From the NCBI GenBank assembly GCA_016219285.1, contig JACRNJ010000002.1:1-52504 (forward strand): a stretch of 52,504 nt of DNA, in the 5' to 3' direction. Source of the DNA: Deltaproteobacteria bacterium. GTDB lineage: Bacteria > Desulfobacterota > GWC2-55-46 > UBA9637. Below the pieces are notes generated by a model that searched no databases, was not told the origin of the DNA, and worked only from the letters and a program-made list of their open reading frames with translations. The position numbers and the translations under genes were made by a program. Shown in pieces: positions 2,612-21,466 of this stretch (its first letter is position 1; each line of letters opens with the position of its first letter).

Positions 2612-2649
2612 ATTAAGACCTATCCAAAAACCGATGTCTATTTTGGAGC

Positions 2650-3727: not shown

Positions 3728-3730
3728 CTT

Positions 3731-5077: not shown

Positions 5078-5834
5078 CTTTCATCACCCTCTTTAGATAG
5101 ATTACAGACGGATCTGCGTTTAGTTCTTCCAACAGCTTGTATTTTCTCTGGCTCTTTGCCAGTTTAAAAACCTTGCTGTCAGGGTCGTTCATGTCCCCGA
5201 AGGTCATTGCCCCTGTGGGACACGACTGAACACAGGCAGGCTGAACCTCGCCATCCCGTATGGACCTGTTTTCATCCTTTGCCCTGTCCTTGGCCGCCCG
5301 AATCCTCTGTATGCAGAATGTGCATTTTTCCATAACACCCATTTCCCTTACCGTAACATCAGGATTTAATTGCTGGTTCAGCGGCTCATCCCGTTTATAA
5401 GTAAACCAGTTGAAGCGGCGCACATCATAGGGGCAGTATGTGGCACAGGTAAATGTCCCAACACAACGGTTATATACCTGAACATTCAAACCGTCCTGAT
5501 TATGATATGTTGCATAAACAGGGCATGCGGTTTCGCATGGCGCCTTACCGCAGTGTTGGCACATAATCGGTATAAACTTTACCTTTACATTCGGGTATTC
5601 CCCTTCCACATACCTCTCAATCCTTATCCAGTTTAACGTCCTTTTATTGCCGCATTCTTCTTTACCAACGACAGGCACATTATTCTCGGCATTGCAGGCA
5701 ACAACACATGCCTCGCACCCGTTGCACCTATCAAGGTCTATGACCATGGTCCATTTATGGTCATATTTTTCATAGTAGCCTGGTATACGATATATTTTGA
5801 ATCTTTCCAGTATCTTATCTAAAAATTTCCCCAA
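5049..5834 (-). CDS. ActB2-like [4Fe-4S] ferredoxin subunit
   Basis: A 261-residue protein with four cysteine groups of the NrfC/DmsB type: CNGCEACVVAC, CQHCGKAPCETACP, CVGTFTCATYCP and CTFCIQRI...CVQSC. Group three reads C-x4-C-x3-C, lacking one Cys of the usual CxxCxxC (GTF in place of the second Cys), as expected where a [3Fe-4S] cluster replaces a [4Fe-4S]. In many ACIII complexes this domain is fused to the large subunit as ActB; here it is separate and starts directly after the B1 stop. It should wire quinol oxidation to the cytochrome subunits. Confidence 0.88.
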   Translation of the reverse strand: MGKFLDKILERFKIYRIPGYYEKYDHKWTMVIDLDRCNGCEACVVACNAENNVPVVGKEECGNKRTLNWIRIERYVEGEYPNVKVKFIPIMCQHCGKAPCETACPVYATYHNQDGLNVQVYNRCVGTFTCATYCPYDVRRFNWFTYKRDEPLNQQLNPDVTVREMGVMEKCTFCIQRIRAAKDRAKDENRSIRDGEVQPACVQSCPTGAMTFGDMNDPDSKVFKLAKSQRKYKLLEELNADPSVIYLKRVMKDGSSATHEE

Positions 5835-8102
5835 TTATCCCTCCATACCCATTTTAGAGAACTCATCAGGCGTTACGGTTTCAACTATCTTTCTTCCAAA
5901 TTCCCTGGTGGAACCTTCCATCTTTACCATGTTTCCCGGAGCATCTCTCCTCGCAGTAATTTTGACACGTGTAGAATTTAATGGTATGGCTCCGCTTCTT
6001 GGGTCTACCTTGAAAGGCAGTATTTCTATGGGATTTACGCCCCTATCTGCCGCATATCTGCCATATAACCTATGCCCCTGGCCTATGGGAATACTGACAG
6101 TATCAGGCCTGATCCCGGGATAAAGGTAGGCCGGGATATTTATATTGCCGTAAGGCGACTCTACCGATACCATATCGCCGTTTTTTATCCCCATACCTTG
6201 TGCGGTCTTTGGATTCATTTCCACCCATACCCCCCATACCACAGAAGTCATTGGGTCAGGCATCTCCTGCAGCCACGGAAGGTTAGCGCCTCTGCCATCA
6301 AGATAACCTGAATGCGGATAAAGGCACAGATAAAACGGATAGTTTTTATCATCACCGTCAAATTTAGAGGGTTCTTTTTGCAGATAGACGTTTATTCCTT
6401 TAGTTGAGATATGACCCGGTTTTAGTGAGGAGATATCAGGGAGCCGCCACCATCCCTTTGCCAGCAGGTTATCCCAAAACTCGTCAAAAGTAGTTTCTTG
6501 TATAACTATCCCCTTATTTTTATCATATATCTTCTTCCATGAATCCTTTAGAAATGCGTCAAAGCTATTCCATGGCACCTCTTTTTTTATAGCTCCGCCT
6601 ATCTTTTCAGCTACATCAATAAAAATATCCCCTGCATTTCTGGTATTAAAAACAGGACTGACCGCAGGCTGCATCACCGTTGCTATAGAATAGCCCACAG
6701 ATGGTTCTGCAAAGTCATCGCCCCAATCCTCCAGGGGGGTATGGGTGGGCAGTATAAGGTCTGCCATAGCAGTAGATTCATCCATAGAACCGGACAGGCT
6801 GACTATGAAGGGAATATTATTTATTGCATCCTCTATCTTCATGGTTTTTGGAGTAGTGAAAACAGGATTGGCGTTATAAAGGATAAGTGTTTTAATCTTG
6901 CCGTTTGAGGCATCTTTTGCAAAAGCTGTTATTTTTTTAATTGCGCCTCGGCGGTTGGAGAGAGAGGCTCCCTTTGGATTTGAAATTACGCCGCCATTCT
7001 TTCCAATATTTCCCGCCAGGTGGTTCAGGATATTGACTGCTATAAGTTGAGACGCTCCATTTTCATAAGAGGCTACATTCTCCCCGCCAATAGCGAGGCT
7101 TGGTTTGTTTACAGCAAACTCTTTGGCCAAAGCCCTGATTCTTCTTTCGTCCACTTCAGTTAAAACCGCCACATCCTTTGGATGATATTTATTTAATATA
7201 TTTTTCCATTCCTGCGCATCTCTGCCCTTATAATAACCTTGTTCAAGAATTGCATAGGCCATGCCCAGAGCCAAGAGTCCTTCTGTCCCTGGCTTGATAG
7301 GTACCCATTCATCAGCATTAGCTCCTGTAAGTGAAAGACGCGGCTCTATCTGAACAACCTTTCCCCTTATCCCTGGCCGTCCTTGCCGCATATGCCCATA
7401 GCCCTGGCTATAGTTCACAGGGGATACCCATGTATTTAAAAAATCTGCGCCAAGGGAAAGGAGAAATTTTGTGTTTTCTATGTCGTAATATGGGAGTGTA
7501 TCCTGACCAAACGCAATATTATTTGCTAAAAGCAGATTCTCATGCTGGAAAAGTTCGTATTGCAGATAATTGGATGAACCATAGGCCTTGATAAAGTTTT
7601 CCAGGAAGGAATTGAGATGGCCTCTGATAGAAGAGGTAAGGAGGTATAACTTTTCAGTTTCTCTCTTATTGTTGCGCAGAGACGAAAGATTTTCTGAGAG
7701 CATAGCAATCCCTTGCTCCCATGTAATCTCCTGAAATTCCCCTTTTCCTCTTTCACCCTTGCGTTTTAAGGGGTTCTTTATCCTATCGGGGTTATAAAGG
7801 GCTTGAAGGCTTGCCTGCCCTCTGGCGCACAATTTTCCTTTATTAATAGGATGAAGCGGGTTGCCCTCAATCTTTTTTGCCCGGCCTTCCATAACCCTTA
7901 CGATAATTCCACAGCCGGCGCTGCATTGGGCGCATACACTTGTGTACCAGTTGGCCACACCGGGTATGATGTCCTCAGGCGGCACAAGATATGGGATAAG
8001 TTCAGCCGATGGGTTCTTGCTTTTTTCCCCAAGCGCAAAACCGGCGGCTGCCCCTGCCCCGCCCACCCCGACTAATTTTAAAAAGTCTCTTCTGTTTAAC
8101 AT
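5835..8102 (-). CDS. ActB1-like molybdopterin-oxidoreductase-fold subunit
   Basis: A 755-residue protein with a TAT-type N-terminus (NRRDFLKLVGVGGAGAAAG). The N-terminal Fe-S motif is complete (CAQCSAGC ... GKLCARG). The body has the Mo-bisMGD fold but no Cys or Ser at the usual Mo-ligand segment (YELFQHENLLLANN), so it is probably not a catalytic molybdoenzyme. This fits ACIII ActB1 or QrcB. Well-studied ActB1 domains hold no cofactor, so the kept Cys set is notable. The C-terminal molydopterin dinucleotide-binding-like domain is present (about 570-755). Confidence 0.82.
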   Translation of the reverse strand: MLNRRDFLKLVGVGGAGAAAGFALGEKSKNPSAELIPYLVPPEDIIPGVANWYTSVCAQCSAGCGIIVRVMEGRAKKIEGNPLHPINKGKLCARGQASLQALYNPDRIKNPLKRKGERGKGEFQEITWEQGIAMLSENLSSLRNNKRETEKLYLLTSSIRGHLNSFLENFIKAYGSSNYLQYELFQHENLLLANNIAFGQDTLPYYDIENTKFLLSLGADFLNTWVSPVNYSQGYGHMRQGRPGIRGKVVQIEPRLSLTGANADEWVPIKPGTEGLLALGMAYAILEQGYYKGRDAQEWKNILNKYHPKDVAVLTEVDERRIRALAKEFAVNKPSLAIGGENVASYENGASQLIAVNILNHLAGNIGKNGGVISNPKGASLSNRRGAIKKITAFAKDASNGKIKTLILYNANPVFTTPKTMKIEDAINNIPFIVSLSGSMDESTAMADLILPTHTPLEDWGDDFAEPSVGYSIATVMQPAVSPVFNTRNAGDIFIDVAEKIGGAIKKEVPWNSFDAFLKDSWKKIYDKNKGIVIQETTFDEFWDNLLAKGWWRLPDISSLKPGHISTKGINVYLQKEPSKFDGDDKNYPFYLCLYPHSGYLDGRGANLPWLQEMPDPMTSVVWGVWVEMNPKTAQGMGIKNGDMVSVESPYGNINIPAYLYPGIRPDTVSIPIGQGHRLYGRYAADRGVNPIEILPFKVDPRSGAIPLNSTRVKITARRDAPGNMVKMEGSTREFGRKIVETVTPDEFSKMGMEG

Positions 8103-8149
8103 AATTTTTAGTTTTATCTTTTAACCTGTCTGCTCCCTACTGCCTACTG

Positions 8150-8677
8150 TCATTTATGGCATGTCCAGCAATCTTTACCGTTTTTCACTTCTCTTCCAAT
8201 AATTGCTACTGCCCCGTTAGTATGGCAATCTAAACACCAACCCATCTTTAATGAAGAAACACGGGTAAGAACATCCATCTTTGCAACATCCCCATGACAC
8301 GTTTGACAGTGCACACCAGCCTTAACATGCCGTTTATGAGGAAAATACACATAATCCGGAAGGTTATGCACCTTAATCCAGGGTATAGGCTCTTTCCTGT
8401 TCCAGTAATCTGTCAGTTTTTGTATCTCAGGCGCATCTTGTTTGATAATCTTGTGGCAGCCTATACACTTGCGGACATTGGGAACCCCTGCTACTGTGGA
8501 CTTATCGGCATAGATATGGCAATACATACAAGGGATATTGTTGTCGCCGGCATGAATCTTATGGCTAAATGCAATGGGCTGGATTGGGCTTCTGTCTGAA
8601 AAATAAACGGCGTTTACATTATAACCAATTGCAAAGGTGGCTACGCCAACAACAATGTATAATATAACCTTTTTCAT
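8150..8677 (-). CDS. actA: ActA-like pentaheme cytochrome c
   Basis: A 175-residue protein with an N-terminal membrane anchor or signal (about 3-22) and five CxxCH motifs at 50-54, 71-75, 124-128, 148-152 and 170-174. Extra His residues (FSHKIH, FPHKRH) match the cytochrome c7/c3-like ActA pattern. It is the first gene of the minus-strand operon, with AAGGAG about 14 bases before ATG. Known ActA is the pentaheme, lipid-anchored cytochrome of ACIII. Confidence 0.88.
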   Translation of the reverse strand: MKKVILYIVVGVATFAIGYNVNAVYFSDRSPIQPIAFSHKIHAGDNNIPCMYCHIYADKSTVAGVPNVRKCIGCHKIIKQDAPEIQKLTDYWNRKEPIPWIKVHNLPDYVYFPHKRHVKAGVHCQTCHGDVAKMDVLTRVSSLKMGWCLDCHTNGAVAIIGREVKNGKDCWTCHK

Positions 8678-8861: not shown

Positions 8862-9194
8862 ATGAAAACAATTACAAAAATATACAAGGCGCTTTCAGAC
8901 GGAACAAGGCTCAGAATACTTAACGTCCTGCATGATGGGGAACTCTGTGTCTGCAATATCATGGATGTTCTGGAGATGGGACAATCAAAGGTGTCAAGGC
9001 ACCTTACCTATCTTAAAAATGCAGGGCTTGTGCAAGACAGGAGGAAAGGGGTTTGGGTCTACTATTTCTTGTCAAAAAATAAGTCTTATCTTCCTTTGAT
9101 AAAGTGCCTTAAAGAATTAAGGAAGGATGTAAAGGAATTACGGTCTGATGCCAAAAGGCTTGCTAAAAGCAAAGTAAAGGTAGAATGTCGATAA
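8862..9194 (+). CDS. ArsR/SmtB-family metalloregulator (CVC type)
   Basis: A 110-residue winged-helix protein. The segment GELCVCNIMDVL (Cys29, Cys31) is the alpha3 thiolate site typical of arsenite/antimonite-sensing ArsR, followed by the recognition helix QSKVSRHLTYLKNAGLV. The C-terminal tail is Lys-rich. It sits between the ACIII operon and the molybdoenzyme cluster, at the head of the latter, and may repress both or only the plus-strand cluster. The CVC motif suggests a thiophilic or redox ligand, but no arsenic gene is recognisable here. Confidence 0.85.
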   Translation: MKTITKIYKALSDGTRLRILNVLHDGELCVCNIMDVLEMGQSKVSRHLTYLKNAGLVQDRRKGVWVYYFLSKNKSYLPLIKCLKELRKDVKELRSDAKRLAKSKVKVECR

Positions 9195-9249: not shown

Positions 9250-9915
9250 ATGTTAAAAGAAATTGCAGAAGACGTAGATTTATCACGGACAGCCCAAAGC
9301 AGAAGCAATGTTTATCGCCTCTTTTCCATGTGTTACATAAATGAGGTCACATCGGAGTTTTTAAAAACTCTTAAATCAAAAAATGTCATGAATTCACTAA
9401 GCGAGTTTGGTGTTGATTTCAGCAAGATATTATTTGATGCGCCCGAGGAGAAGCTATTGGATATACTTGCCGGAGAATATGCAGCCCTTTTTATTGTGCC
9501 AGGCGGCATCCCACCATACGAGTCAGTGCGGCTTAAAGGTCTTCTCTGCCAGGAACCTGAATGGAAGGTCAGGGAATTTTACAAACGGTGCGGTTTAACG
9601 GTTAGGGATGATTGCAAGATATTTTCCGACCATCTGGGTATGGAGCTGGAATTTATGGGCTATCTAACTGATAAGGAGGCTAAGGCATGGGGTGATAAAG
9701 ATGAAAAGACAGCAGCAGAATGGCTTAATCTCCAGAAAGAGTTTTTTGCCAATCATCTCAATAAATGGGTTTTTGGGTTTTTAAATGATATGGATAAGTG
9801 TGCATTTCATCCATTTTACAAGGAAGTGGCAAGGTTGACAAAGACGTTTTTAGAGGTGGAAAAACAAGACCTAACGTCACAAGATGCAAGTTGCAAGATG
9901 CAGGTTTCAAGTTAA
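9250..9915 (+). CDS. TorD/DmsD-like molybdoenzyme chaperone
   Basis: An all-helical protein (221 residues) with the TorD-family signatures AGEYAALFIVPGGIPPYESV and DHLGMELEFMGYL. Such proteins bind the TAT leader of molybdoenzymes and help cofactor insertion. The partner is presumably the TAT-leader protein at 18791, or also 14816. A strong ribosome site (AGGAGGG) precedes ATG 9250. The last 12 or so residues (SQDASCKMQVSS) derive from a tandem repeat (9885-9960) that runs through the stop codon, so the native C-terminus may have been shorter. Confidence 0.82.
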   Translation: MLKEIAEDVDLSRTAQSRSNVYRLFSMCYINEVTSEFLKTLKSKNVMNSLSEFGVDFSKILFDAPEEKLLDILAGEYAALFIVPGGIPPYESVRLKGLLCQEPEWKVREFYKRCGLTVRDDCKIFSDHLGMELEFMGYLTDKEAKAWGDKDEKTAAEWLNLQKEFFANHLNKWVFGFLNDMDKCAFHPFYKEVARLTKTFLEVEKQDLTSQDASCKMQVSS

Positions 9916-9962
9916 GACCTGCAATCTTAAATTTATAACTTGTCACTTGCAACTCGCAACCT
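9885..9962. repeat. Heptamer-type tandem repeat over a gene junction
   Basis: Variants of the words TTGCAAG, TGCAGGT and CTTGCAA are repeated in both orientations, spanning the end of the torD-like gene and the start region of the polyferredoxin. A similar block is at 18705-18768. Confidence 0.7.
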
Positions 9963-9969
9963 TCTTTTT

Positions 9970-11214
9970 ATGATTAGTTTTATCCCAAACAGATGTCAGC
10001 CATGGCTTTACAAAAAGGCGGAATGCCGTCTCTGTGCAGATGTCTGTCCAATTGAGGGGTGTATACGATTTGAAGGCAACACCATATGCATTAAAACAGA
10101 GGATTGTATAGGCTGCGGCATATGCACAAATGTTTGCCCGAGCAGCGCTTTGGTAATGGACAGCCTTTCTGATAAGGAGATTTTAAATAGATTACAGGCA
10201 AATGTGGATGGAGATAGTCTCATATTTGGTTGTTCTCTCGGCCCTAATAATGTAGATACGAATTTAAAATCGCAAATCGTAAATCGTAAATCGCAAATCA
10301 ATATTAACCTTCCCTGTCTTGCTATGCTTAAGGAATCGCATCTTGTATCTCTGACCCTATCGGGTGTAGATAATATCCATATAGATATCAGTCATTGTGA
10401 TAGCTGTTCATTTAAGTATGGGAAACCCACTATTGCAAAGACTGTATCCTATGCTGACACTCTTTTGAATGCAATGGGATATTATGATTGCATAAGAACA
10501 GACACCAGACACCAGACACCAGATACCGGCCAAGATAAGAAATCAACCCCTACATTCTGCAAAAATAAAAAACAAAACATAAAGACCATAACCCCCGGCG
10601 CTGAGTATTCAAGGCGGGAACTTCTCAATTTTTTCAGAGAAAAGGCAGTGGAAAAGGTTGTTGGTAAAACCAACGTTAAGAAAGTGGATGGTAAGGGAGT
10701 AGATGGCGTTCCTGACAGAAGGAAACTGCTTCTGGATGTTTTGCAAGCAAAGGGTAATCTCCAATTGGATAAGCTTGAAGAGGGGCGATTCCCGGTTCAT
10801 CAAATTAGAATAGACAGCGACTGCACATTGTGCAATGACTGCAATCTGTTCTGCCCCGCAGGGGCTTTAACAAAGGTGGAGCAGAAGACGGAATCGGATG
10901 ATGAGGCAGGGGAGGTAAGGATAGACTTTAACATGTCGTTGTGTATAGGTTGCTATCAGTGCGCTGACTTATGCCGTGAAGATGCGATGCACATTGAGAA
11001 GTTCATAAACCTTGCGGCTTTTGCTGATGCTGAAATAAAGACCCTATTTAAGAAGACAAACCAGAAATGCCCTTCCTGCAATAGATATTTCTATCCGGAA
11101 GATGGCGCGGAAGAATGTCTTATCTGCGCAAAGAGAAACAGTATAGACCAAAAGATATTTGGTGGCCTGTTCAACAATGATACAGAAACAGAGGAAAATA
11201 AATCAATACAATAG
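9970..11214 (+). CDS. Polyferredoxin with four [4Fe-4S]-type motifs and a C-terminal zinc-ribbon-like end
   Basis: About 414 residues from ATG 9970; a TTG at 9940 in the upstream repeat is less likely. N-terminal motifs CRLCADVCP and CIGCGICTNVCP form one 2x[4Fe-4S] ferredoxin domain; a second pair (CTLCNDCNLFCP, CIGCYQCADLCR) lies near 285-345. The tail has CPSCNRYF...CLIC. Two linkers come from tandem repeats: around 10262-10300 (KSQIVNRKSQ) and 10497-10530 (TRHQTPDT). It lies between a molybdoenzyme chaperone and a cytochrome, so electron transfer to the downstream complex is likely. Exact role unknown. Confidence 0.75.
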   Translation: MISFIPNRCQPWLYKKAECRLCADVCPIEGCIRFEGNTICIKTEDCIGCGICTNVCPSSALVMDSLSDKEILNRLQANVDGDSLIFGCSLGPNNVDTNLKSQIVNRKSQININLPCLAMLKESHLVSLTLSGVDNIHIDISHCDSCSFKYGKPTIAKTVSYADTLLNAMGYYDCIRTDTRHQTPDTGQDKKSTPTFCKNKKQNIKTITPGAEYSRRELLNFFREKAVEKVVGKTNVKKVDGKGVDGVPDRRKLLLDVLQAKGNLQLDKLEEGRFPVHQIRIDSDCTLCNDCNLFCPAGALTKVEQKTESDDEAGEVRIDFNMSLCIGCYQCADLCREDAMHIEKFINLAAFADAEIKTLFKKTNQKCPSCNRYFYPEDGAEECLICAKRNSIDQKIFGGLFNNDTETEENKSIQ

Positions 11215-11228
11215 AAAAGGAGGGTGGA

Positions 11229-11966
11229 ATGAAAAGATTATTTATTTCAATTTTTATGGTTACTGTCCTATTTACAGCATCAGAAATTCTGGCTGCAGCA
11301 AAGGTTTCATATGAAGGCTATAAAAAGTGCGGGGGCTGCCATAAGAGCCAGAAAGACTCATGGTTAGAAACAGCTCATGCGAAGGCAATGCATGCCCTTA
11401 AACCAAAGGAACATGCAGATGAGAAAAAGAAGGTTAAATTAGACCCTGAGAAGGACTACACACAAGATAAAGATTGTGTCGGCTGCCATACAACAGGTTT
11501 TGGTGAAAAGGGCGGATATAAAACAGGGATGTCTGAAGATAAGGCAAAATTTTTATCAGGGGTAGGCTGCGAGGATTGTCATGGCGCAGGAAGTCTTTAC
11601 AGAAAGGAACACAGCGCTGCTGGCAAGGCTTTTAAGGCTACACAAAAAGCAAGCCCGAGAAGCAAACTTGTTGAAGCAGGACAGTCATTTGATTATGAAG
11701 AGGCGTGCGCAAGATGCCATCTTAACTATGAAGGTTCTCCATGGAAGGGGGCAAAAGAACCATATACACCATTTACACCAAAGGTGGATGCAAAATATAA
11801 ATTTGATTTTGAAAAAGCAGTTAAGAAAACAGGCAAGGTTAAAGCCATGCATGAACATTTTAAGTTAAGGGGCGTATTTGAAGGCGAACCGATTCCGAAG
11901 ATTAGGGCAGAATCCCAGAAGGGCGCAAAAGAAGCAGCAGCAGGAGAAGAGGACGAGAAGGACTAA
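11229..11966 (+). CDS. Tetraheme cytochrome c (c554-like)
   Basis: A 245-residue secreted protein, signal peptide ending at about ILAAA. It has four CxxCH motifs (CGGCH, CVGCH, CEDCH, CARCH) spaced as in the cytochrome c554 family (PF13435), with an N-terminal YEGYKKCGGCHKSQKDSWLETAHAKAM segment. The C-terminus is charged and low-complexity (KGAKEAAAGEEDEKD). It probably relays electrons in the periplasm for the neighbouring molybdoenzyme complex. The heme count is direct; the partner is inferred. Confidence 0.85.
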   Translation: MKRLFISIFMVTVLFTASEILAAAKVSYEGYKKCGGCHKSQKDSWLETAHAKAMHALKPKEHADEKKKVKLDPEKDYTQDKDCVGCHTTGFGEKGGYKTGMSEDKAKFLSGVGCEDCHGAGSLYRKEHSAAGKAFKATQKASPRSKLVEAGQSFDYEEACARCHLNYEGSPWKGAKEPYTPFTPKVDAKYKFDFEKAVKKTGKVKAMHEHFKLRGVFEGEPIPKIRAESQKGAKEAAAGEEDEKD

Positions 11967-12192: not shown

Positions 12193-12984
12193 ATGACTCA
12201 AGTGAACGGGAATGGGCTGGATGGCTATACACTACCTACCCTATCTGCAGTAGTTCGAGAGCAGTTGCGCGAGCAACTATTTAGCAACGTATGGAACACG
12301 GAATTGAACGAAGTGTTTGCCGATGTGGCGCCCTACTACGATCGCGCCAACTATAGCGCCAGCCTTGGGTTGTGGGGGTGGCTTCTGCAAAGATTCATGT
12401 CCACGGTTGATGTCCATCCCTGTGATCGGATGTTAGATGTGTGCGCCGGCACTAACGTTATTGGTATCGCACTGCTCAAACGGGAGCCAAGCCTCGATGT
12501 GCATGCAATTGATCGCAGCGCGGCGATGCAGGAGGTTGGCCGGCAACGTGCCGCGGCAAAGGGATTTCATATACACAGATCGATTGGAGATGTGCACAAT
12601 CTACCGTTTCCGGATAATCATTTCGATGTTGTAACGTTGCAGTTCGCCTCACGGCACCTGCGTATAAGACGCGTGTTTGAGGAGATCCACCGCGTTCTCA
12701 AGCCTGGCGGACATTTCCACCACAGCGATATGCTGCGCCCCGGCAATCCGGTCGTCAAGCGCCTTTATTGCGGGTATCTGCGCACATGTCTCGCGTTTAC
12801 GGCATTCCTGTTCCGCAGCGGGCCGACGGCGCGTAACTGCAAGAAGTATTTTGTCAATGCGATTGAGATGTTCTACTCGGCCGATGAACTGTCGGTAGTG
12901 CTGCGTGAGTTGGGATATGTGGATGTTACTGCTAAAACCGTGCTGTACGGCATGCTTGGCTTCCATCGCGCCGTAAAACACTAA
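12193..12984 (+). CDS. UbiE/MenG-like class I SAM methyltransferase
   Basis: 263 residues; motif I LDVCAGTNVIGIALL, an acidic motif II (VHAIDRS), motif post-I (GDVHNLPFPDNHFDVVT) and HRVLKPGGHFHHSD are of the UbiE/MenG type. UbiE-type enzymes methylate the quinone ring, so a link to the quinol complexes nearby is plausible. Its DNA is visibly richer in GC and uses codons such as CGC and GCC more than its neighbours, suggesting transfer from another genome. It has a clear AAGGAGGAG site and its own start. Other small-molecule substrates are possible. Confidence 0.75.
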   Translation: MTQVNGNGLDGYTLPTLSAVVREQLREQLFSNVWNTELNEVFADVAPYYDRANYSASLGLWGWLLQRFMSTVDVHPCDRMLDVCAGTNVIGIALLKREPSLDVHAIDRSAAMQEVGRQRAAAKGFHIHRSIGDVHNLPFPDNHFDVVTLQFASRHLRIRRVFEEIHRVLKPGGHFHHSDMLRPGNPVVKRLYCGYLRTCLAFTAFLFRSGPTARNCKKYFVNAIEMFYSADELSVVLRELGYVDVTAKTVLYGMLGFHRAVKH

Positions 12985-13012: not shown

Positions 13013-13738
13013 ATGTCTGAGGCAAAATGGATGAGTAAAAGGACATATGGTTTGCAGAGTCCGCCGAGCCTCGGCGTTCCCGGCAAAAAACGTTATGCCA
13101 TGGTTATTGACCTCAGAAGGTGCATTGGCTGCGGAGCATGCGTTGTTGCTGACGACCCTCCATGTGTGAGAAACTGTCCCACCCAGGCAACATATAAACA
13201 TGAAAGCGGTTTTATACTTCAGAGGTATAACCGGTGCATTGGGTGTAAAACCTGCATGGTTGCTTGTCCTTATAACGCAAGACATCTGCTGCCCGCTGCA
13301 AGGACAGACCATTCCCAGCCAACGGATGTTGCAGATAAGTGCGACTTCTGCATCCATAGAGTTACAAGAGGACTTATGCCTACATGCGTTACTACATGTA
13401 TGGGCGGCGCAATTACATTTGGGGATGTAAATGATTCTGAAAGCGAAGTGTCAAGGATGCTTGATACACATAAGACAATGACGTTGAGGTCTGATAAAGG
13501 AACGCGTCCGCAGGTATATTATATTGGCCTTGACGGAGATATAGCTGATGTAGCGGCAAGCTATGCTGATAGAAGCGTTCAAATGAGAGAAGAGTTTAAT
13601 ATTTTCAAAAGAAACCGTTTGGGCGCAGGAAACATCATTGAAGGAGAGTCTGAAACAGGCCCCGTGGGTTTCCCCTTACAGGTTATTAGAAATATGATAA
13701 ATTTCGTCAAGGATATAGTTGAAAAAGGATATAGATAA
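13013..13738 (+). CDS. Fe-S subunit of a molybdoenzyme complex (B-prime), with an internal deletion
   Basis: A 241-residue NrfC/PsrB-type ferredoxin subunit. The first cluster motif is CIGCGAC (37, 40, 43), but the fourth Cys and about 35-40 residues up to the next motif are missing: CVVA runs directly into DDPPCVRNCP (Cys51, 55). Motif three (CIGCKTCMVACP, 75-85) and motif four (CDFC...CVTTC) are complete. It therefore holds 13 of 16 expected Cys, so one or more clusters must be altered. A strong GGGAGGAGC site precedes it. Adjacent NrfD and the degenerate large subunit suggest they form one half of the complex. Confidence 0.8.
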   Translation: MSEAKWMSKRTYGLQSPPSLGVPGKKRYAMVIDLRRCIGCGACVVADDPPCVRNCPTQATYKHESGFILQRYNRCIGCKTCMVACPYNARHLLPAARTDHSQPTDVADKCDFCIHRVTRGLMPTCVTTCMGGAITFGDVNDSESEVSRMLDTHKTMTLRSDKGTRPQVYYIGLDGDIADVAASYADRSVQMREEFNIFKRNRLGAGNIIEGESETGPVGFPLQVIRNMINFVKDIVEKGYR

Positions 13739-13758
13739 CCGGCTAAAAAGGAGAAGAC

Positions 13759-14730
13759 ATGGAAAAGGAACTTATAATGAACGCATTCCATGATGTTTAT
13801 TGGGGCGTGCCAATATCTATCTACTTCTGGCTAATGGGTGTAAGCGCAGGTGCCCACGTCATTTCCGGGTTCGGATGGGTCTTTGGACTAAAGAAATATA
13901 AACAGGTTGGACTGATAGCTACCCTGTGGGCGATATTGGCGCTTTTGATAGTGCCACTGATACTTATTCATGACCTCGGCAAGCCAATGAGATTCTTCTA
14001 CCTTCTTTTGCCTTTCTACTGGCACAACAGCGCGCCTATGTCATGGGGCACTGTGCTGATCATGCTATATCCCTGCATGATGAGCATCTATGCCTACTTT
14101 ATGTATAAAAACAATGAAAGGATGGCCTTTATTTTCGGCATCGGTTCTATTCTGTCTGCGGCGTCTACCCATTGGTATACAGGTGTAGTTATTCAGTTAA
14201 ACCCCGGCAGAGATTTAAATCACACAGCGATAGCCTCGCTACTTTTCCTTGTCGGCGCATTCATATCTGGAACAGGATTTCTAATTGTAACCTTCTGGAT
14301 TATGAACATATTCCTTAACCCGTTAAAAAAAATCAGAGATTCTTTTCAAGAGGGTTTTATCAAAAGATTCATAAAGGCTTGCAGCATTGGAGAGAAGGTA
14401 GAGGATTCACTGATTGTGGAGATGGGACAGGTTATGGCTATCGGTATAGTTGTTGAACTGATTCTAACATTAAACGAATATCTCCAAATGATTTATGGCA
14501 CGATGGAGGAGCAGTCTAATCTTTACGATGTGCTATTGGGGGCATTCAGGGTGCCTTTTTTGGCATATGTGTTTTTTGCAATGTTAATTCCATTATTCAT
14601 ACTCTATCTATCGCCTATAAAGAGGCGTCCATTTGGCGTAGCTATTGCAGCAGGATTGGTATGTATAGGGATATTCGGCATGAGGCTATGGTGGGTTCTT
14701 GGCGGACTGTTTCAGCAGTCATTCTATTGA
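13759..14730 (+). CDS. NrfD/PsrC-family quinol-interacting membrane subunit
   Basis: 323 residues with about eight hydrophobic helices, the NrfD-type segment GVPISIYFWLMGVSAGAHVI and the loop LIHDLGKPMRFFYLL. It is the only membrane subunit in this cluster, so it should exchange electrons with the quinone pool for both Fe-S/Mo pairs. It starts 20 bases after the Fe-S subunit with AAAAAGGAG. Family assignment is firm. Direction of electron flow is not decided by sequence. Confidence 0.85.
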   Translation: MEKELIMNAFHDVYWGVPISIYFWLMGVSAGAHVISGFGWVFGLKKYKQVGLIATLWAILALLIVPLILIHDLGKPMRFFYLLLPFYWHNSAPMSWGTVLIMLYPCMMSIYAYFMYKNNERMAFIFGIGSILSAASTHWYTGVVIQLNPGRDLNHTAIASLLFLVGAFISGTGFLIVTFWIMNIFLNPLKKIRDSFQEGFIKRFIKACSIGEKVEDSLIVEMGQVMAIGIVVELILTLNEYLQMIYGTMEEQSNLYDVLLGAFRVPFLAYVFFAMLIPLFILYLSPIKRRPFGVAIAAGLVCIGIFGMRLWWVLGGLFQQSFY

Positions 14731-14815
14731 TATTGTCCAAATGGAATTAGTAAGAAAATGTTATTGAATCTTCTTAATATAAGGCAATGAAATTGGGGAA
14801 TGGAGGCAATATAAA

Positions 14816-17233
14816 ATGGCATTAACCCGCAGAGAACTTTTGAAGCTTGGAGTTGCAAGTTCAATAGCCATTACTATCGGACCAAGGGTATTAAGGGCTA
14901 TGGAGCTTATGCCTGGAGGCGAATCTCATAATTATCTGAAGATTACAGAACGTATCAGTGTACCGTATACAACATGGGAAGCAAAGATTAGAAATTCAGG
15001 ATTAGCGTTTATTGAAAGTGGAAAGATTGTTCAGTTAAGCGGAAACCCAAACCATATAACTACAAGAGGCCGCTTGACGGCGCAGGAGAGCGCTGCCTAT
15101 CTGCAAGTATATGACCAGGACAGGATAATATATCCTTTAAAGAGGATTGGGGATCGAGGCGCCGGAAAATGGAAGAGGATATCATGGGATGAGGCTATAG
15201 GAAGCATATCGGAAAAAATAACAACTTTAATTGATAATGGAAGAAATCAGGATATATGCCTGGTTACCGGCAGGGACTCTTCTGGAGGCGCGTGGAAGAG
15301 GTTTATGCATACATTAGGAACTAATAGTATATTCAGACAGGATTCAATAGGAGACTTAAACAAAAAAACAGCCATGCTCAACACATGGGGCGCAGAAATA
15401 GAGACCCCTGACTTTGCCAACAGCAAATACATCATTATCTTTGGTTCAAATCCTTTTGATACATTTCAGCCTTATGCCCAGCAAATAGCTGACGGCAGGA
15501 TTGAGAAGAGATCTAAATTAGTTACCTTTGATGTTAGGGTATCCAATACCTCTGGGCTTTCCGATGAATGGGTGCCAGTTTTCCCGGGGACAGATGGCAT
15601 TGTGGCATTGGCTATGGCAAATGTAATTATGAGTAGTGGGCTGGCGGATACAGAATTTATCAATAAATGGACAAACTACCCGGCAGATAAATTGGCTAAT
15701 CACCTGAAACAGTTTACCCCTGAGGTGGCGGAAAAGGCAAGCGGGGTGCCTGCCAAAGATATTATAAGAATAGCAAAGGAATTTGCGACTACTAAGCCGG
15801 CTTCAATCTTTACATACAGGGGCGTAAGCGCGCACCCTTATGGCGTATACTCTGAAAGGGCATGCATGCTTCTGCCAATTATTACCGGAAACATAGAGAA
15901 CAAAGGCGGATATTGTCTGCCGAGATATGTTAATTGGCTTAATGTCGAGCCTGCGCCGCCTGTACCGAAAATTAAATTAAGACAAGTCTTTCCGTTAGGG
16001 GACCCCGGATATTTATTTCCTTTTAGGGTTAGGGATGGAGAAATAAAGGCAGGCATCTTGTTTAATTATATGACCAATCCGGTCTATTCAAGCCCAGCAG
16101 CAAACATGTGGAGAGAAACACTTAAAGACTCATCCGTCATTCCCTTTATTGTTGATTTCAGCCCATTTATGAGTGAGACCGCTCTGTATGCTGATATCAT
16201 CCTTCCTGATGCCCATTATCTTGAACGGACAGAATCAGATACGAGCCCATCGCTTTTTCCATGGATAGGTTTAAGACAGCCTGTTGTTAAGCCTATGGGT
16301 GAGGCAAAGGAGACGAGAGAGGCGCTTAAAATGATTATAGAAAATGTGGACACCGACGGCAGCCGCGGTATGAAAAAGTATTGGGGATTCATAGCAGATG
16401 GATGGATGAAGGGACAGCTTGACGAAATACCAGGTTTTAAAAAGGCCGGCGGCTATGAAGCTTTGAAAGAAAACGGCGTATGGCCTATCTATGGAAAGAT
16501 TGACCCGAAGACAAAAAAAATAGTAGATAAAAGCGATAATCCGGTTGAGGCAGAATACGGAATTCACAGAAAAAAAGGATTTGATACGCCCTCAGGGAAA
16601 ATAGAGATATATTCAAAGGGATTTGAAAAGCAAGGATTGCAGCCACTGCCAACATGGAAGCAGATACCCTTGCATAAGGATATAAAAAAGGATGAATTGA
16701 TACTTGTCACATATAAGGCAGGTTTCCATATAAACTCTATTACCGCAAATACAAAATATCTTTCAGAGATGCTTCATTCAAACCCCGTGCATATAAACAA
16801 GGAGACAGCAAAGGAGTTTGGCATTGAAGACGGGGTGCTTGTAAGGATTATTTCACCAGTAGGATATATGGTAACAAAGGCGAGAACCACTATTTCAATA
16901 CACCCCAAGGTTGCAGCAATTTCCTCTTCCTTCGGCCATTTGGCATACGGGAGGGTAGCTAAGGCTAAACCAAAAGATAATACCTTTTTTGAGGATGGCC
17001 TGCCTCACGATAAAGATATCCGTCATAACCTATGGTGGAATGATAGTGGCGTAAATCCAAACGAAATAATACCTGTTATTCCTGACCCTATATGCGGGGG
17101 ACAGGGCTGGAGCGACGTGGTTATAACAATTGAGCCGGCAAAGGCTGAAGACCGCTACGGAGATATTCAAGTTGACAATGCTAAACATATTGCATTTTAT
17201 AAAAAAATGCTGGAGTTAATTCATGAGTCATAA
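14816..17233 (+). CDS. Molybdopterin-oxidoreductase paralogue lacking all cofactor-ligand cysteines (A-prime)
   Basis: 805 residues with a TAT-like leader (MALTRRELLKLGVASS). It is clearly homologous to the protein at 18791, for example DEWVPVFPGTDGIVALAMANVIMSSGLADTEFINKWTNYP against the paralogue. At the Fe-S motif YTCLVC reads YTTWEA (53-56) and GRLC reads GRLT (88). At the Mo-ligand site SVCESSKK reads SIGDLNKK (Gly179). It is therefore predicted to bind neither the [4Fe-4S] cluster nor Mo through a protein thiolate. It may be a structural or regulatory partner, comparable with NuoG or ActB1. It overlaps the next gene by 11 bases. Confidence 0.85.
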   Translation: MALTRRELLKLGVASSIAITIGPRVLRAMELMPGGESHNYLKITERISVPYTTWEAKIRNSGLAFIESGKIVQLSGNPNHITTRGRLTAQESAAYLQVYDQDRIIYPLKRIGDRGAGKWKRISWDEAIGSISEKITTLIDNGRNQDICLVTGRDSSGGAWKRFMHTLGTNSIFRQDSIGDLNKKTAMLNTWGAEIETPDFANSKYIIIFGSNPFDTFQPYAQQIADGRIEKRSKLVTFDVRVSNTSGLSDEWVPVFPGTDGIVALAMANVIMSSGLADTEFINKWTNYPADKLANHLKQFTPEVAEKASGVPAKDIIRIAKEFATTKPASIFTYRGVSAHPYGVYSERACMLLPIITGNIENKGGYCLPRYVNWLNVEPAPPVPKIKLRQVFPLGDPGYLFPFRVRDGEIKAGILFNYMTNPVYSSPAANMWRETLKDSSVIPFIVDFSPFMSETALYADIILPDAHYLERTESDTSPSLFPWIGLRQPVVKPMGEAKETREALKMIIENVDTDGSRGMKKYWGFIADGWMKGQLDEIPGFKKAGGYEALKENGVWPIYGKIDPKTKKIVDKSDNPVEAEYGIHRKKGFDTPSGKIEIYSKGFEKQGLQPLPTWKQIPLHKDIKKDELILVTYKAGFHINSITANTKYLSEMLHSNPVHINKETAKEFGIEDGVLVRIISPVGYMVTKARTTISIHPKVAAISSSFGHLAYGRVAKAKPKDNTFFEDGLPHDKDIRHNLWWNDSGVNPNEIIPVIPDPICGGQGWSDVVITIEPAKAEDRYGDIQVDNAKHIAFYKKMLELIHES

Positions 17234-17885
17234 TGAATCAAAGGTTTTTTTTCTGCTCCGCAAATACTGGAAAATTGCGGCTGCTATAACTGGCTTTATG
17301 TTTGTCTTTATTGTATTGCCTTTATTTCTAACTTATGGAAGCATTAAAAAACCGGTTTTCTGCAGTATATGCCATGAGACACTGTATGACGATAAAGATT
17401 ATGAAGCAAATGATAAACACTATAAGGTCTCTGGAGGAGTAATGGTCGGATGTGCTGAATGCCACCCTCATCCTTATTTTGAGTACACAAAGTCCGAACA
17501 TTACTCTACGAAAACAGAGCATAAAGCAGGATGTGTCAATTGCCATAGGCCGCATACAATAGCAGCTTTTGCCGGATATATGTATCTTGCAATTTCTCCA
17601 TGGGAAGAGGTAATGGAGGCAATGACAAAAGATATGGAAAAGTGGGAAAAAGATATCAGGCACAAGATGGCAAAACGTGTCCGGGAGGAATTTTTAAAAG
17701 ATGACAGCAGGCCATGCAAGGAGTGTCACAGTACATCCGGGGCCGGTATGGATGAAGCTTTGGAACCGCATAAGATAGGAATTAAAGAAAATATGACATG
17801 CATCGAATGCCACTTCAACCTTGTTCATAAAAAGGTGCCATGGCCGGAAATGGAGGCTAAGAAGGAAAGGCTTGGTATAGAGTAG
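17223..17885 (+). CDS. Pentaheme NapC/NrfH-like membrane-anchored cytochrome c
   Basis: 220 residues: one N-terminal transmembrane helix (about 17-37) then five CxxCH motifs at 47-51, 77-81, 104-108, 165-169 and 193-197. The first two thirds, with YGS...FCSICHE and a central CVNCHRPH, match the NapC/NirT/NrfH quinol dehydrogenase family, which usually has four hemes. It starts inside the 3' end of the large-subunit gene. It should connect the membrane quinone pool with periplasmic partners. Confidence 0.85.
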   Translation: MSHNESKVFFLLRKYWKIAAAITGFMFVFIVLPLFLTYGSIKKPVFCSICHETLYDDKDYEANDKHYKVSGGVMVGCAECHPHPYFEYTKSEHYSTKTEHKAGCVNCHRPHTIAAFAGYMYLAISPWEEVMEAMTKDMEKWEKDIRHKMAKRVREEFLKDDSRPCKECHSTSGAGMDEALEPHKIGIKENMTCIECHFNLVHKKVPWPEMEAKKERLGIE

Positions 17886-18009
17886 GAAAAAGGTGCGGTT
17901 AGCAGGAGAGATTGTATTAAAAGAGGGTAAAAAATAATAAAAAAAAGGAGGTGTTGGCGAGACCCTACAAAGATATTTAGAATCAACCAAATTTAAAGGA
18001 GGTGGATTT

Positions 18010-18693
18010 ATGGCAAGAATGACAATGGTTATGGATGTAAGACGCTGCATAGGCTGCCATGCGTGCACAGTGGCTTGCAAGACAGAAAATGATGTCCCTC
18101 TGGGTGTATGGAGGACACATATCAGAACAAAGGAGGTAGGAAAGTATCCTTATGTCCGCAGACATTTTTATCAGTGGATTTGCGCACAGTGTGGTAATTG
18201 CATTGAGGCGTCTGAAAATAATGGCGTTGGTGCAGTTTCAAGAAGACCTGACGGCATAGTTACAGTTGATTATGAGAAACTTACCAAGGGAAGAACACAG
18301 AAGCAGATTGATAAGGAGATAGATGCCGCAATAGAGGCATGTCCCATTGGCGCATTCTCAAGAAACCCAATGACAGGGATGCCTGAAAAATGCAATCAGT
18401 GCGCCCACAGGGTTGACAAGGGGCTTGTCCCTGCATGTGTCCAGACCTGTCTTGGCAGGGCAAGAATCTACGGAGACGCTTCGGATCCAAAGAGCGAGGT
18501 TGCAAAGATACTTGGAACCAATGCTGCCAGACCTGCCCCGCCAAATGACTGCGATGACCCGCATGTCCATTATATTGGTCTTGACGGCAACCTTGTTGAC
18601 CGTGGCGCATTAGAAGGGCAAGTTCAGGTAAAGACCGAAGACTTTGTTTCCGGCAAGATAGACCAGGTTGTGAATGGACTGGGAGGAAAGTAA
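18010..18693 (+). CDS. Fe-S subunit of the molybdoenzyme complex (B), with incomplete motifs
   Basis: 227 residues of the NrfC/DmsB family. Motif I is complete (CIGCHACTVAC, 13-23). Motif II is reduced to CAQCGNC (58-64). Motif III keeps only the last Cys (ACP, 111), its first three replaced in the stretch KEIDAAIEACP. Motif IV is complete (CNQC...CVQTC, 128-147). So about 12 of 16 Cys remain and the losses differ from those of the B-prime subunit. The gene has AAAGGAGGTGG before ATG and is followed by the Mo-ligand-containing large subunit. Confidence 0.8.
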   Translation: MARMTMVMDVRRCIGCHACTVACKTENDVPLGVWRTHIRTKEVGKYPYVRRHFYQWICAQCGNCIEASENNGVGAVSRRPDGIVTVDYEKLTKGRTQKQIDKEIDAAIEACPIGAFSRNPMTGMPEKCNQCAHRVDKGLVPACVQTCLGRARIYGDASDPKSEVAKILGTNAARPAPPNDCDDPHVHYIGLDGNLVDRGALEGQVQVKTEDFVSGKIDQVVNGLGGK

Positions 18694-18704
18694 AAGGATA
18701 GTTA

Positions 18705-18768
18705 CAGGATGCAAGTTGCAAGGTGCAAGTATAAAAAACTTGAAACCTGCAACTTGAAACTTGAAACG
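18705..18768. repeat. Heptamer-type tandem repeat between B and A genes
   Basis: Words such as GCAAGTT, GCAAGGT, TTGAAAC and CTGCAAC are repeated in the 97-base gap before the catalytic large subunit; a ribosome site (AAGGAGG) follows directly. Confidence 0.65.
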
Positions 18769-18790
18769 TTAATTAAGGAGGTAAAACCTT

Positions 18791-21379
18791 ATGGAATTAA
18801 ATAGAAGACGATTTATACAATTAGGCGCTGCAACAGGCGCTGTCATGGCAATAGAAGGTCCATTTGCAAATGCAATGGAACTTGAACTTGGCGGCAGGGG
18901 TGTTGCAGTTGATAAAAGTAGCGGCATAACCAATAAGGGCAGCGATTTTGATAAGGTCGTCCCATACACCTGTCTTGTCTGCAATATAGAAGATGGCGGA
19001 CTTGCCTATATTAAAGACGGAAGGGTAAAGAAACTGGAGGGCAATGACAAGCATGTTTCAACAAGGGGAAGGCTTTGCGCAAAAGGTAATTCAGGCATAG
19101 GGCATGTTTATGACCCTGACAGAATCCTCTATCCTTTAAAGAGGACTGGCACAAGGGGAAGCGGTCAGTATAAGAGGGTTTCATGGGATGAGGCTATAAC
19201 AGAGGTTGCAGGCAAGTTAAAGGCTGTTATAGACAGCGGACATCCAAATGAAACCATGCTCCACTGGGGCAGGGATAGAAGCGGCGGCGCATATGGCAGG
19301 TTTATGAAGACACTCGGGACAAACACAGGCGTGAACCACACATCCGTCTGTGAATCCTCAAAGAAGATAGGCATGGAGCCTACATGGGGACCTGACATTG
19401 AAACCCCTGACTTTGCAAATACAAAATACATCCTCAATTTTGGCAGCAACATCCTTGAGGCAGCATATTTCCATAATCCATATTCGCAAAGGGTTGTGGA
19501 AGGTACCGTAAAAAACAAGGCAAAGCTTGTAACATTTGATGTCCGTCTTACAAACACTGCTGCAAAGAGTGATGAATGGTATCCAATATTCCCGGGCACA
19601 GATGCTATTATTGCGCTTGCAATGGCAAATGTAATTATGAGCGAGGGTCTTGCGGATACAGATTTTATCAACAAATGGACTAACTATCCTGCAGATAAAC
19701 TTGCAGAATACCTAAAGCAGTATACGCCCGAGATGGCTGAAAAATATTCAGGTGTTCCAGCAAGGCAGATTAAAAGGGTTGCCATTGAATTTGCCAGTGT
19801 AAAACCAGCAACAACATACACCTACAGGGGACCTGCAATGCGTCTCTACGGCTCATATAATGAAAGATGCACAATGCTTCTGCCAATAATCACAGGCAAC
19901 ATTGAGGTAAAAGGCGGCTATTGTCTGCCAAGGGGCATGGGCTATGGTCAGCCTGCAGATGGACCAGCGGGCGGCAAGGAGCCGAGTTTCCTTTCTTCAC
20001 CGCCTGATTATCCATTGGCAGGACACAAGGTTTCACACCTTGTGCCTTTCTGGATTAAGGAAGGCAAGCAGAAGATAAAGGTGCTTATGAGATACATGAA
20101 CTCTGCAGCATATACCTTCCCTGCTGCCAGTGTATGGAAAGAGGTGCAGATGGATGAGAAACTCATCCCGTTCAGTTTCAAGATAGACAACCAGATGAAC
20201 GAGGATACAGCCCTCTTTGACATAATCCTGCCTGACTGCAGTTATCTTGAAAGATATGACCCTGAGAGTATGCCTTCGAGTTTATGGCCATGGGTTGGCT
20301 TAAGACAGCCTGTTGTAAAACCGCTTGGCGAGGCAATAGAGTTCAGGGAAATCCTCAAGATGATAATCCACAAAATAGACTCTGACGGCAGCAGGGGCAT
20401 GAAAAAGTCATGGAACTTCAAGGATGGAGAGGATTATGTGAAACAGCAGTTTGCAGGCGTAGTACCTGACTGGGAACAGTTCAAAAAAGATGGTGTTTAC
20501 CCGATCTACGGGAAACTTGACCCAAAAACAGGCATGATTGTCGGCAAAGATGGCATACCGATAAAGGCAGAGTATGGTCTTCCTTATAAGGAAGACCCAA
20601 AGGGCAAGGTAACAGTGGATGGTAAAAAACGGGCAGGATTCGGCACTGGCGATGGGAAGATAAACATCCATGTGGCCTCATGGGAGAAGTATGGGTTCAA
20701 CCCGCTTCCTGTATTTAAGGCACACCCATGGCACTGGAACAAGGACGGCTCATCAAAACTGTCTGATGACCAGATGATACTTACCACATTTAAATGGAAT
20801 GTCCATGTCCAGTCAAGGACGCCAAATGTCAAATTGCTGACCGAGATGGTGCATTCTAATCCTGCATGGATAAATACTGCAACTGCCCAAAAGATTGGTA
20901 TAAAGAACGGTGACCTTATCAGAATCACAAGCGGTGTCGGTTATATTGTGACAAAGGTAAGGGTTACAGAGGGCATCCATCCAAAGGTTATCGCAGTATC
21001 CAATACATTTGGCACAAAGTTTGGCAGATTCGCAACTGCAAATAAGATGAGCGGCAATGGCCAGTACGGCGCTGCAGATGATGCGGACATCAAGAATATC
21101 TGGTGGAAGACAGAAGGCGTTAATCCAAACGATGTGATTGTTGTTTCGGCAGACCCGATAGGCGGCGGGCAGGGTTGGTTTGACACAGTTGTTACAGTAA
21201 CCCCTGCACAGTCCGGAGATAAATTCGGCGATGGGAAAGCTGATAATGCAAAGCATGTTGAGTTCTACAAGGAGACTATGGAATATGCCTACAGCGGCAA
21301 GAAGCACAAAGAGATGCATCCAGAGGTAAAGATAGACTGGAGCGCACTGCCAAAGCCTGAACTCAAGAAAGGGCATTAA
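18791..21379 (+). CDS. Catalytic-type molybdopterin oxidoreductase large subunit (A)
   Basis: 862 residues with a TAT leader (NRRRFIQLGAATGAV). Motif for the N-terminal Fe-S cluster: Cys61, Cys64 (CLVC) and Cys96 (GRLCAKG); the usual third Cys of C-x2-C-x3-C is replaced within NIEDGG. The Mo-ligand candidate is Cys187 in HTSVCESSKK. The C-terminal dinucleotide-binding domain is complete. It belongs to the DMSO-reductase superfamily near the PsrA/PhsA/TtrA types. The substrate cannot be read from sequence. It is the last gene of the cluster and has a clear downstream terminator. Confidence 0.85.
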   Translation: MELNRRRFIQLGAATGAVMAIEGPFANAMELELGGRGVAVDKSSGITNKGSDFDKVVPYTCLVCNIEDGGLAYIKDGRVKKLEGNDKHVSTRGRLCAKGNSGIGHVYDPDRILYPLKRTGTRGSGQYKRVSWDEAITEVAGKLKAVIDSGHPNETMLHWGRDRSGGAYGRFMKTLGTNTGVNHTSVCESSKKIGMEPTWGPDIETPDFANTKYILNFGSNILEAAYFHNPYSQRVVEGTVKNKAKLVTFDVRLTNTAAKSDEWYPIFPGTDAIIALAMANVIMSEGLADTDFINKWTNYPADKLAEYLKQYTPEMAEKYSGVPARQIKRVAIEFASVKPATTYTYRGPAMRLYGSYNERCTMLLPIITGNIEVKGGYCLPRGMGYGQPADGPAGGKEPSFLSSPPDYPLAGHKVSHLVPFWIKEGKQKIKVLMRYMNSAAYTFPAASVWKEVQMDEKLIPFSFKIDNQMNEDTALFDIILPDCSYLERYDPESMPSSLWPWVGLRQPVVKPLGEAIEFREILKMIIHKIDSDGSRGMKKSWNFKDGEDYVKQQFAGVVPDWEQFKKDGVYPIYGKLDPKTGMIVGKDGIPIKAEYGLPYKEDPKGKVTVDGKKRAGFGTGDGKINIHVASWEKYGFNPLPVFKAHPWHWNKDGSSKLSDDQMILTTFKWNVHVQSRTPNVKLLTEMVHSNPAWINTATAQKIGIKNGDLIRITSGVGYIVTKVRVTEGIHPKVIAVSNTFGTKFGRFATANKMSGNGQYGAADDADIKNIWWKTEGVNPNDVIVVSADPIGGGQGWFDTVVTVTPAQSGDKFGDGKADNAKHVEFYKETMEYAYSGKKHKEMHPEVKIDWSALPKPELKKGH

Positions 21380-21433
21380 AAAGGTTTTAGATTGCTCTTA
21401 TAAATTTTTTAAAATCACTTAAGAGGGTTATCC

Positions 21434-21466
21434 AAAAAAGGCAGACTAAGCGGTCTGCCTTTTTTG
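21434..21466 (+). terminator. Rho-independent terminator of the molybdoenzyme cluster
   Basis: GGCAGAC and GTCTGCC form a perfect 7-bp stem with a 6-base loop, flanked by six A on the 5' side and T6 on the 3' side. It lies about 55 bases after the large-subunit stop. Confidence 0.9.

Follow-up and report, generated by a model that had tools for sequence, protein, structure and literature searches.

Two described systems combine an NrfD-type membrane protein with a MopB subunit of the molybdoenzyme superfamily that is devoid of molybdenum. QrcABCD, the cytochrome c3:menaquinone oxidoreductase of sulfate reducers, is built from a multihaem cytochrome c, a cofactor-less MopB-like subunit, an Fe-S protein and an NrfD-type protein, its QrcB subunit having no redox cofactor (PMC13059093). 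Alternative complex III (ACIII, ActABCDEF), a quinol:cytochrome c oxidoreductase, likewise contains a pentaheme cytochrome, a Mo-less MopB, an Fe-S protein and NrfD. A survey of the superfamily by Wells et al. 2023 counts FhcB, Nqo3 and ActB as independent cases of Mo/W cofactor loss, three in all, and does not mention Qrc (PMC10100899). Here we analyze a stretch of 52,504 nucleotides from a Deltaproteobacteria bacterium (assembly GCA_016219285.1, contig JACRNJ010000002.1, positions 1 to 52,504, hereafter the window), in which six contiguous open reading frames on the forward strand (13013-21379) encode an Fe-S subunit (B'), an NrfD protein, a MopB large subunit (A'), a pentaheme cytochrome c, a second Fe-S subunit (B) and a second MopB (A) (Table 1). 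A' has lost every cysteine that ligates molybdenum or the Fe-S cluster in A, and the first four genes, referred to as module 1, probably encode a quinone:cytochrome c oxidoreductase that evolved independently of Qrc and ACIII.

The likeness of the parts (multihaem cytochrome, cofactor-less MopB, Fe-S protein, NrfD) could suggest that module 1 simply belongs to Qrc or ACIII, which we consider highly improbable. As far as its ligand positions tell, A' does look like the MopB-like subunit without redox-cofactor ligands expected of Qrc (Thr-Ala-Thr/Gly in place of Cys-Cys-Cys/Cys), but it reaches only 157 bits against the 440-bit cut-off of the QrcB model NF041783, B' reaches 89 bits against the 400-bit cut-off of the QrcC model NF041782, and the cytochrome matches NapC/NirT models and not the QrcA model NF041781. 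In addition, its NrfD has 323 residues, as compared with the 10 transmembrane helices of QrcD, and the cofactor was lost separately. Concerning ACIII, genes for ActD, ActE and ActF are found neither in module 1 here nor at its other loci, and A' and the ActB-type MopB form separate clades, a joint clade being rejected by the approximately unbiased (AU) test with p 7.9e-5.

The PsrABC, PhsABC and ArrAB-type enzymes share fold and descent with both A' and A, and operons of the B'-NrfD-A order, with a Cys-ligated Mo site in A, exist in the same genus (G002, G003). In contrast to these, A' has neither a Cys, Ser, Asp or Sec ligand for Mo nor the N-terminal [4Fe-4S] ligands, lacks a dedicated TorD chaperone and has a multihaem cytochrome gene behind it. 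The menaquinone:cytochrome c clusters of Methanoperedenaceae also use NrfD, Fe-S and multihaem proteins as a quinone-cytochrome link, but no MopB-type scaffold is named in their description (PMC7327174), whereas A' is part of module 1. A sequence-only reading of the window had stated that no described enzyme shows this exact set of genes. This stands for the exact set, and no description of an A'-type complex or of the six-gene set was found in the open-licence literature; it does not extend to a cofactor-less MopB within an NrfD complex, for which Qrc and ACIII are precedents.

Loss of the cofactor ligands in A'

A' and A align over their full length, with 48.6% identity over 843 columns (BLAST) or 51% (HMMER). 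The three Fe-S cysteines of A are replaced in A' (C61 by T53, C64 by A56, C96 by T88), and the Mo ligand C187 is replaced by G179. Family scans are consistent with these assignments: both large subunits match PF00384 (Molybdopterin) and PF01568 (Molydop_binding), only A matches the Fe4S4 domain PF04879, B' and B match 4Fe-4S dicluster models and the cytochrome matches Cytochrom_NNT. The gene set and order, the full-length alignment and the four substitutions are thus exactly as the sequence-only reading had claimed, with all six frames open.

A search for homologues in the window's class (63 genomes) and in a sample of its phylum (395 genomes) yielded six further A' copies in five genomes, so that the clade comprises 7 copies from 6 genomes and 4 families. 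The Mo-Cys is missing in 7/7 copies. Every Fe-S Cys is also lost in 3/7, from three families, namely the window copy and those of G030 (Val-Thr-Ser/Gly) and G139 (Ser-Ala-Lys/Gly), while the Fe-S cysteines are intact in G008, G009 (two copies) and G010, whose A' sequences show Ser or an alignment gap in place of the Mo ligand. In a maximum-likelihood tree of 46 rows the seven A' sequences form one group with support 100/100, nested among active A-type enzymes, within which the fully ligand-less trio is a subgroup (97/98). The Mo ligand was thus probably lost first and the Fe-S ligands later. No further members of the clade appeared in two phylum samples of essentially identical make-up, where a second Mo-ligand-less clade surfaced instead (see below), and none beyond the phylum among the best 80 loci of a scan of genome contigs. 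The two frameshifted copies, found in order-level relatives (L109 11885-14192 and L110 10245-12550), are split at different places and represent either sequencing errors or pseudogenes.

The losses are far from evenly distributed. Of the 118 columns that do not vary among 29 active relatives, 80% are retained in A'. The fully ligand-less trio shares the loss of 12, namely the Fe-S, Mo or electron-path residues C61, C64, R78, C96, K98, H183, T184, C187 and E188, together with P109, P388 and R676. Hence 10/18 invariant columns are lost in the Fe-S/Mo segments against 2/100 elsewhere (Fisher 2.6e-8), which excludes ligand loss by chance. The retained columns include G218, D250, R252, P268, D271, E358, H688, N690 and N780, and no A' copy lacks the twin-arginine pair (RR5-6 in the window). 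An AlphaFold model of A' is of good quality (predicted local distance difference test, pLDDT, 86; predicted template modelling score, pTM, 0.89), and its best match in the PDB is PsrA (TM-score 0.81 on the target), followed by ArrA. Sequencing error or private decay as the cause of the ligand loss is rejected by the full loss in two genomes of other families and by the absence of the Mo-Cys from four more copies. Judged from its sequences, A' is a conserved lineage and not a product of decay, which bears out the proposal of an active enzyme accompanied by a structural paralogue. The phylogeny of both large subunits, which had been put forward as a check, points the same way for A', and for A reveals a different history, given below.

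Two modules and the proposed role of module 1

The six genes comprise two adjoining modules, module 1 (B'-NrfD-A'-pentaheme) and module 2 (ArsR-TorD-ferredoxin-c554...B-A), the ArsR, TorD, ferredoxin and c554 genes upstream on the same strand belonging with A. In relatives module 1 takes the form [tetraheme]-B'-NrfD-A'-pentaheme and lies apart from A in G008, G009 (two copies), G010, G030 and G139, some of these loci being cut by contig ends. Its NrfD is 72% identical to that of G030 and about 50% identical to the NrfD of active B'-NrfD-A operons of the same genus. The cytochrome gene overlaps the end of the A' gene by 11 nt. Module 1 adjoins genes with a cytochrome-cd1 domain in G009, G010 and G139, the gene of a D1-domain protein in G030, and genes of ethylbenzene-dehydrogenase-type heme proteins in G009 and G030. 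An ortholog of the cd1 cluster of G009 and G010 is present on another contig of the window genome (L166 10569-17091, contig 4 of G000); it comprises NirS-like, cytochrome c, NirN-like, radical-SAM-like and NirF-like genes and is devoid of the A' module that stands beside its G009 and G010 orthologs.

Module 2, with the order TorD-ferredoxin-c554-[cytochrome]-B-A, occurs with neither NrfD nor A' in G034, G057 and G013 (where the order varies) and in part in L025. In G008 the order is ArsR-TorD-ferredoxin-c554-[pentaheme, another Cys-Mo MopB, Fe-S protein, membrane subunit, ferredoxin]-B-A, and the middle of this frame is filled in the window by module 1 and a GC-rich methyltransferase gene. G008, G009 and G010 all have a different NrfD-type module beside A/B, while in G002, G003, G005 and G006, of the same genus and family, a close relative of A is encoded with a B'-type subunit, NrfD and TorD, i.e. 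the classical PsrABC plan.

Subunits of the B type normally bind four clusters through four Cys motifs. B, like all its orthologs, is without the first three Cys of motif III (CxxCxxC) and without the last Cys of motif II, all of which B' retains. By the usual ligand pairing these Cys belong to the quinone-side cluster; B has therefore apparently lost this one of the four clusters. In QrcC, Y113 sits between the Cys ligands of the quinone-proximal cluster (PMC13059093). Without a quinone-side cluster, A/B seems suited to electron exchange with cytochromes and not to a seat on a shared NrfD.

These data bear on the view that the six genes form one heteromeric complex, with an active A/B half and an inactive A'/B' half on a single NrfD and the pentaheme cytochrome bridging both. 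The contiguity of the genes on one strand, the common fold and approximately 50% identity of A and A', and the recurrence of some quinone module beside A/B in G008 and G010 speak for it. Against it stand A' modules apart from A in five genomes, A with neither A' nor any NrfD in G034, G057, G013 and L025, the missing cluster of B, and a tree in which the window A groups with the A of another family, so that A and A' do not have one history here. We regard a single complex as improbable. Hence the suggestions that one NrfD serves both halves and that the complex unites an active and an inactive half find no support, and the six-gene order, sought in other genomes, is split there into two modules.

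At every A' locus found, the gene immediately behind A' encodes a multihaem cytochrome. Over 92 loci with enough flank, MopB genes without a Mo ligand have such a gene (at least 4 CxxCH) as their direct 3' neighbour in 9/9 cases and those with a Mo-Cys in 0/82 (Fisher 1.3e-12), whereas a TorD gene is present within 5 kb of 0/9 of the former and 62/82 of the latter (1.3e-5). Both p-values make the associations look stronger than they are, as the relatives share history, with two origins in the sample and ACIII/Qrc as a third. The rule also holds inside the window, where the pentaheme gene stands directly 3' of A' and none stands after A.

The reading we favor, with a probability of roughly 0.7, is that module 1 is an independently evolved, Qrc/ACIII-like quinone:cytochrome c oxidoreductase in which A' serves as cofactor-less scaffold and carrier for twin-arginine translocation (Tat), and that module 2 is a separate active molybdoenzyme. 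The oxidoreductase class is one we infer from the parts of the module and its neighbours. Quinol would be oxidized (or quinone reduced) at the NrfD/B' site, as NrfD retains the quinone-site motifs D-L-G-K-P and M-S-W-G within stretches corresponding to those whose quinone-binding residues have been examined in QrcD and PsrC (PMC13059093). The pentaheme cytochrome would take up electrons by way of the B' clusters and deliver them to periplasmic partners such as c554-type and other cytochromes, with a cd1-type nitrite reductase as possible sink in the relatives and A/B in the window genome. A', presumably the descendant of an active A-type molybdoenzyme in which loss of the Mo ligand preceded that of the [4Fe-4S] ligands, would dock B' and the cytochrome as a non-redox scaffold and, as the only Tat-signal-bearing partner of B', would bring this signal-less subunit across the membrane. 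The module 2 enzyme would be a periplasmic, PsrA/PhsA/ArrA-like Cys-Mo enzyme that exchanges electrons with c-type cytochromes and not directly with NrfD.

Besides the shared history of the loci, several observations weigh against this reading. The predicted pterin-pocket residues are largely kept in A', which could still hold bis-molybdopterin guanine dinucleotide (bis-MGD), and frameshifts occur in 2/7 copies (G009 C81 and G010 C55). Moreover, B' of the window shows a 39-residue in-frame deletion relative to every ortholog aligned, by which the CxxC of motif II is gone while motif III and the Cys of motif IV are kept, and such a loss would take one cluster out of the electron wire. The deletion is either an assembly error or a real loss of cluster ligands; if real, module 1 may be impaired or rewired in this genome.

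The retained pocket gives rise to the alternative that A' still binds bis-MGD and has some catalytic or redox role, with no protein ligand to the metal, as in AioA and IdrA (PMC10100899), and no Fe-S cluster, as in DorA/TorA. The columns kept in A', such as those from G218 to N780 listed above, would fit, but the active-site H183, T184 and E188 and the relay K98 went along with the ligands in all three copies, no [4Fe-4S] is left to hand electrons to B', and TorD is found in no A' cluster of the relatives, as compared with its frequency at Mo-Cys clusters. We hold this to be improbable; the absence of a cofactor from A' is a prediction from its ligand positions. The deletion in B', which takes out conserved Cys, and the frameshifts in order-level relatives would also fit a decaying remnant in the window. 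Yet none of A', NrfD and the cytochrome is truncated, the 805 codons of A' have no stop although its branch is long (0.37-0.40 changes per column), and the loss at the ligand sites, common to G030 and G139, is older than the species split, so that decay appears about as improbable as the single complex.

The active-type enzyme A/B and the neighbouring genes

A has the features of the Cys-Mo Psr/Phs/Arr group: C187 as Mo ligand (19349), C61, C64 and C96 for the Fe-S cluster, a Tat pair (RR5-6), the partner B and a TorD. In the N-terminal motif CxxCxxxD (18971-18994) D68 takes the place of the third Cys and is probably an Asp ligand, the fourth of the cluster; it is kept in near relatives, while distant members have C or D. 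This alternation across the wider family is a natural series for the study of Asp-ligated [4Fe-4S] clusters. A remains below the curated cut-offs of PhsA (325/694 bits), ArrA (175/1600) and TtrA (108/1750). It carries R161 and K192, the latter a Lys five residues past the Mo-Cys, at the places of what we take to be the arsenate-binding pair of ArrA; they are only partly kept in the broader family. An arsenic-specific role deduced from the Cys-Val-Cys motif of the ArsR is rejected, A being far under the ArrA cut-off and the G008 ArsR reading Cys-Val-Asn; the hint at a thiophilic substrate that this motif had been taken for is weak for the latter reason.

A is 90% identical to the copy of G010 (family f2), and its nearest named relatives were deposited as Nitrospirae/Nitrospirota. 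Since A groups in the maximum-likelihood tree with the A of family f2 and not with that of its own genus, the window species has probably either acquired module 2 or retained it in a different manner. Between the c554 gene and B' lies a UbiE-type methyltransferase gene (12193-12984) with 53% GC and a third-position GC (GC3) of 0.60 in a region of 43% GC, probably a recent insertion. A scan of the window for promoters gave no excess over shuffled sequences.

Divergent from the six-gene locus, the window holds a complete ACIII operon (1484-8677, reverse strand), which is a different system and in which QrcA/B/C-like proteins are encoded. Orthologs of this operon are present in G001 and G007, and part of one in G019.

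Table 1. Positions of the six-gene locus, the associated module 2 genes and the divergent ACIII operon in the window
Feature	Position	Strand	Remarks
B'	13013..13738	+	241 residues; 4Fe-4S subunit of the A' module; no signal peptide seen
Junction of 117-bp in-frame deletion in B'	about 13148-13156	+	CVVA joined to DDPPCV; short GAC repeats at junction
NrfD/PsrC-type membrane subunit	13759..14730	+	323 residues; PF03916; HDLGKP and SAPMSWG motifs
A'	14816..17233	+	805 residues; ligand-less MopB paralogue
Substituted codons of A'	T53 14972, A56 14981, T88 15077, G179 15350	+	
Pentaheme NapC/NirT-type cytochrome c	17223..17885	+	220 residues; 5 CxxCH; one N-terminal transmembrane helix, membrane-anchored
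B	18010..18693	+	227 residues; Fe-S subunit of active enzyme
A	18791..21379	+	862 residues; active-type MopB molybdoenzyme; Tat signal
ArsR/SmtB regulator	8862..9194	+	ELCVCN motif; first of the A-enzyme genes; G008 ortholog at same place
TorD-family molybdoenzyme chaperone	9250..9915	+	conserved with A
Polyferredoxin-type Fe-S protein	9940..11214	+	conserved in A cluster
Tetraheme cytochrome c554-like protein	11229..11966	+	conserved in A cluster
Terminator-like hairpin	21433..21466	+	strong; 15 pairs and T run; 3' of A
QrcA/ActA-like pentaheme	8150-8677	-	matches QrcA model NF041781, below cut-off
ActB1-like MopB	5835-8102	-	Gln at Mo-ligand column; Fe-S Cys kept
ACIII Fe-S subunit, separately encoded	5049-5834	-	
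ActC-like NrfD	3731-5077	-	
ActD	3218-3727	-	PF11821, 130 bits
Monoheme ActE-like	2650-3279	-	
Membrane protein in ActF position	1484-2611	-	

Possible repeated conversion of molybdoenzymes

Two separate clades account for the Mo-ligand-less cases: that of A' and one with SZUA-224, G087, G231, G207, G369, G141 and G117, the latter apparently a separate origin of a Qrc-like complex. The loci of the second clade (L035, L036 and L148-L154) are operons of the order B-NrfD-MopB*-multihaem, MopB* being the Mo-ligand-less subunit, with cytochromes of 6, 12 or 6+16 hemes and Fe-S Cys mostly kept. Two other MopB relatives (L054 and L071) show a Ser at the Mo-ligand column and a TorD gene nearby, and are probably active Ser-ligated enzymes in an otherwise Cys-ligated clade.

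A broader proposal, for and against which we see the balance as even, is that molybdoenzymes of the PsrABC plan have repeatedly been turned into metal-free quinone:cytochrome c oxidoreductases, so that, besides Qrc and ACIII, the A' clade and the L035/G087/G231/G369-type clade would represent two or more origins within this phylum that have not been described before. Each time the multihaem gene would have come to lie behind the dead subunit, the surviving A' forms would show the order of the losses, and the converted complex, which here stands inside the operon of an active enzyme of the parent type, may be its dedicated quinol link. As a genomic rule, a multihaem gene directly behind a MopB gene together with the absence of TorD would mark a Mo-ligand-less MopB, and could correct many annotations as molybdopterin oxidoreductase in genomes of this kind.

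The origin of ACIII and Qrc from molybdoenzymes is known only from its end states. The A' clade adds a later, independent loss of the cofactor for which intermediate forms and active sisters of about 50% identity are still extant, so that both the sequence of events and the way in which the cytochrome was recruited can be put to a direct test. The same conversion seems to have taken place separately at least twice in related bacteria, and A', beside a cytochrome gene gained only lately, probably survives as a scaffold that links the quinones of the membrane to cytochromes, its intact twin A being a normal enzyme.

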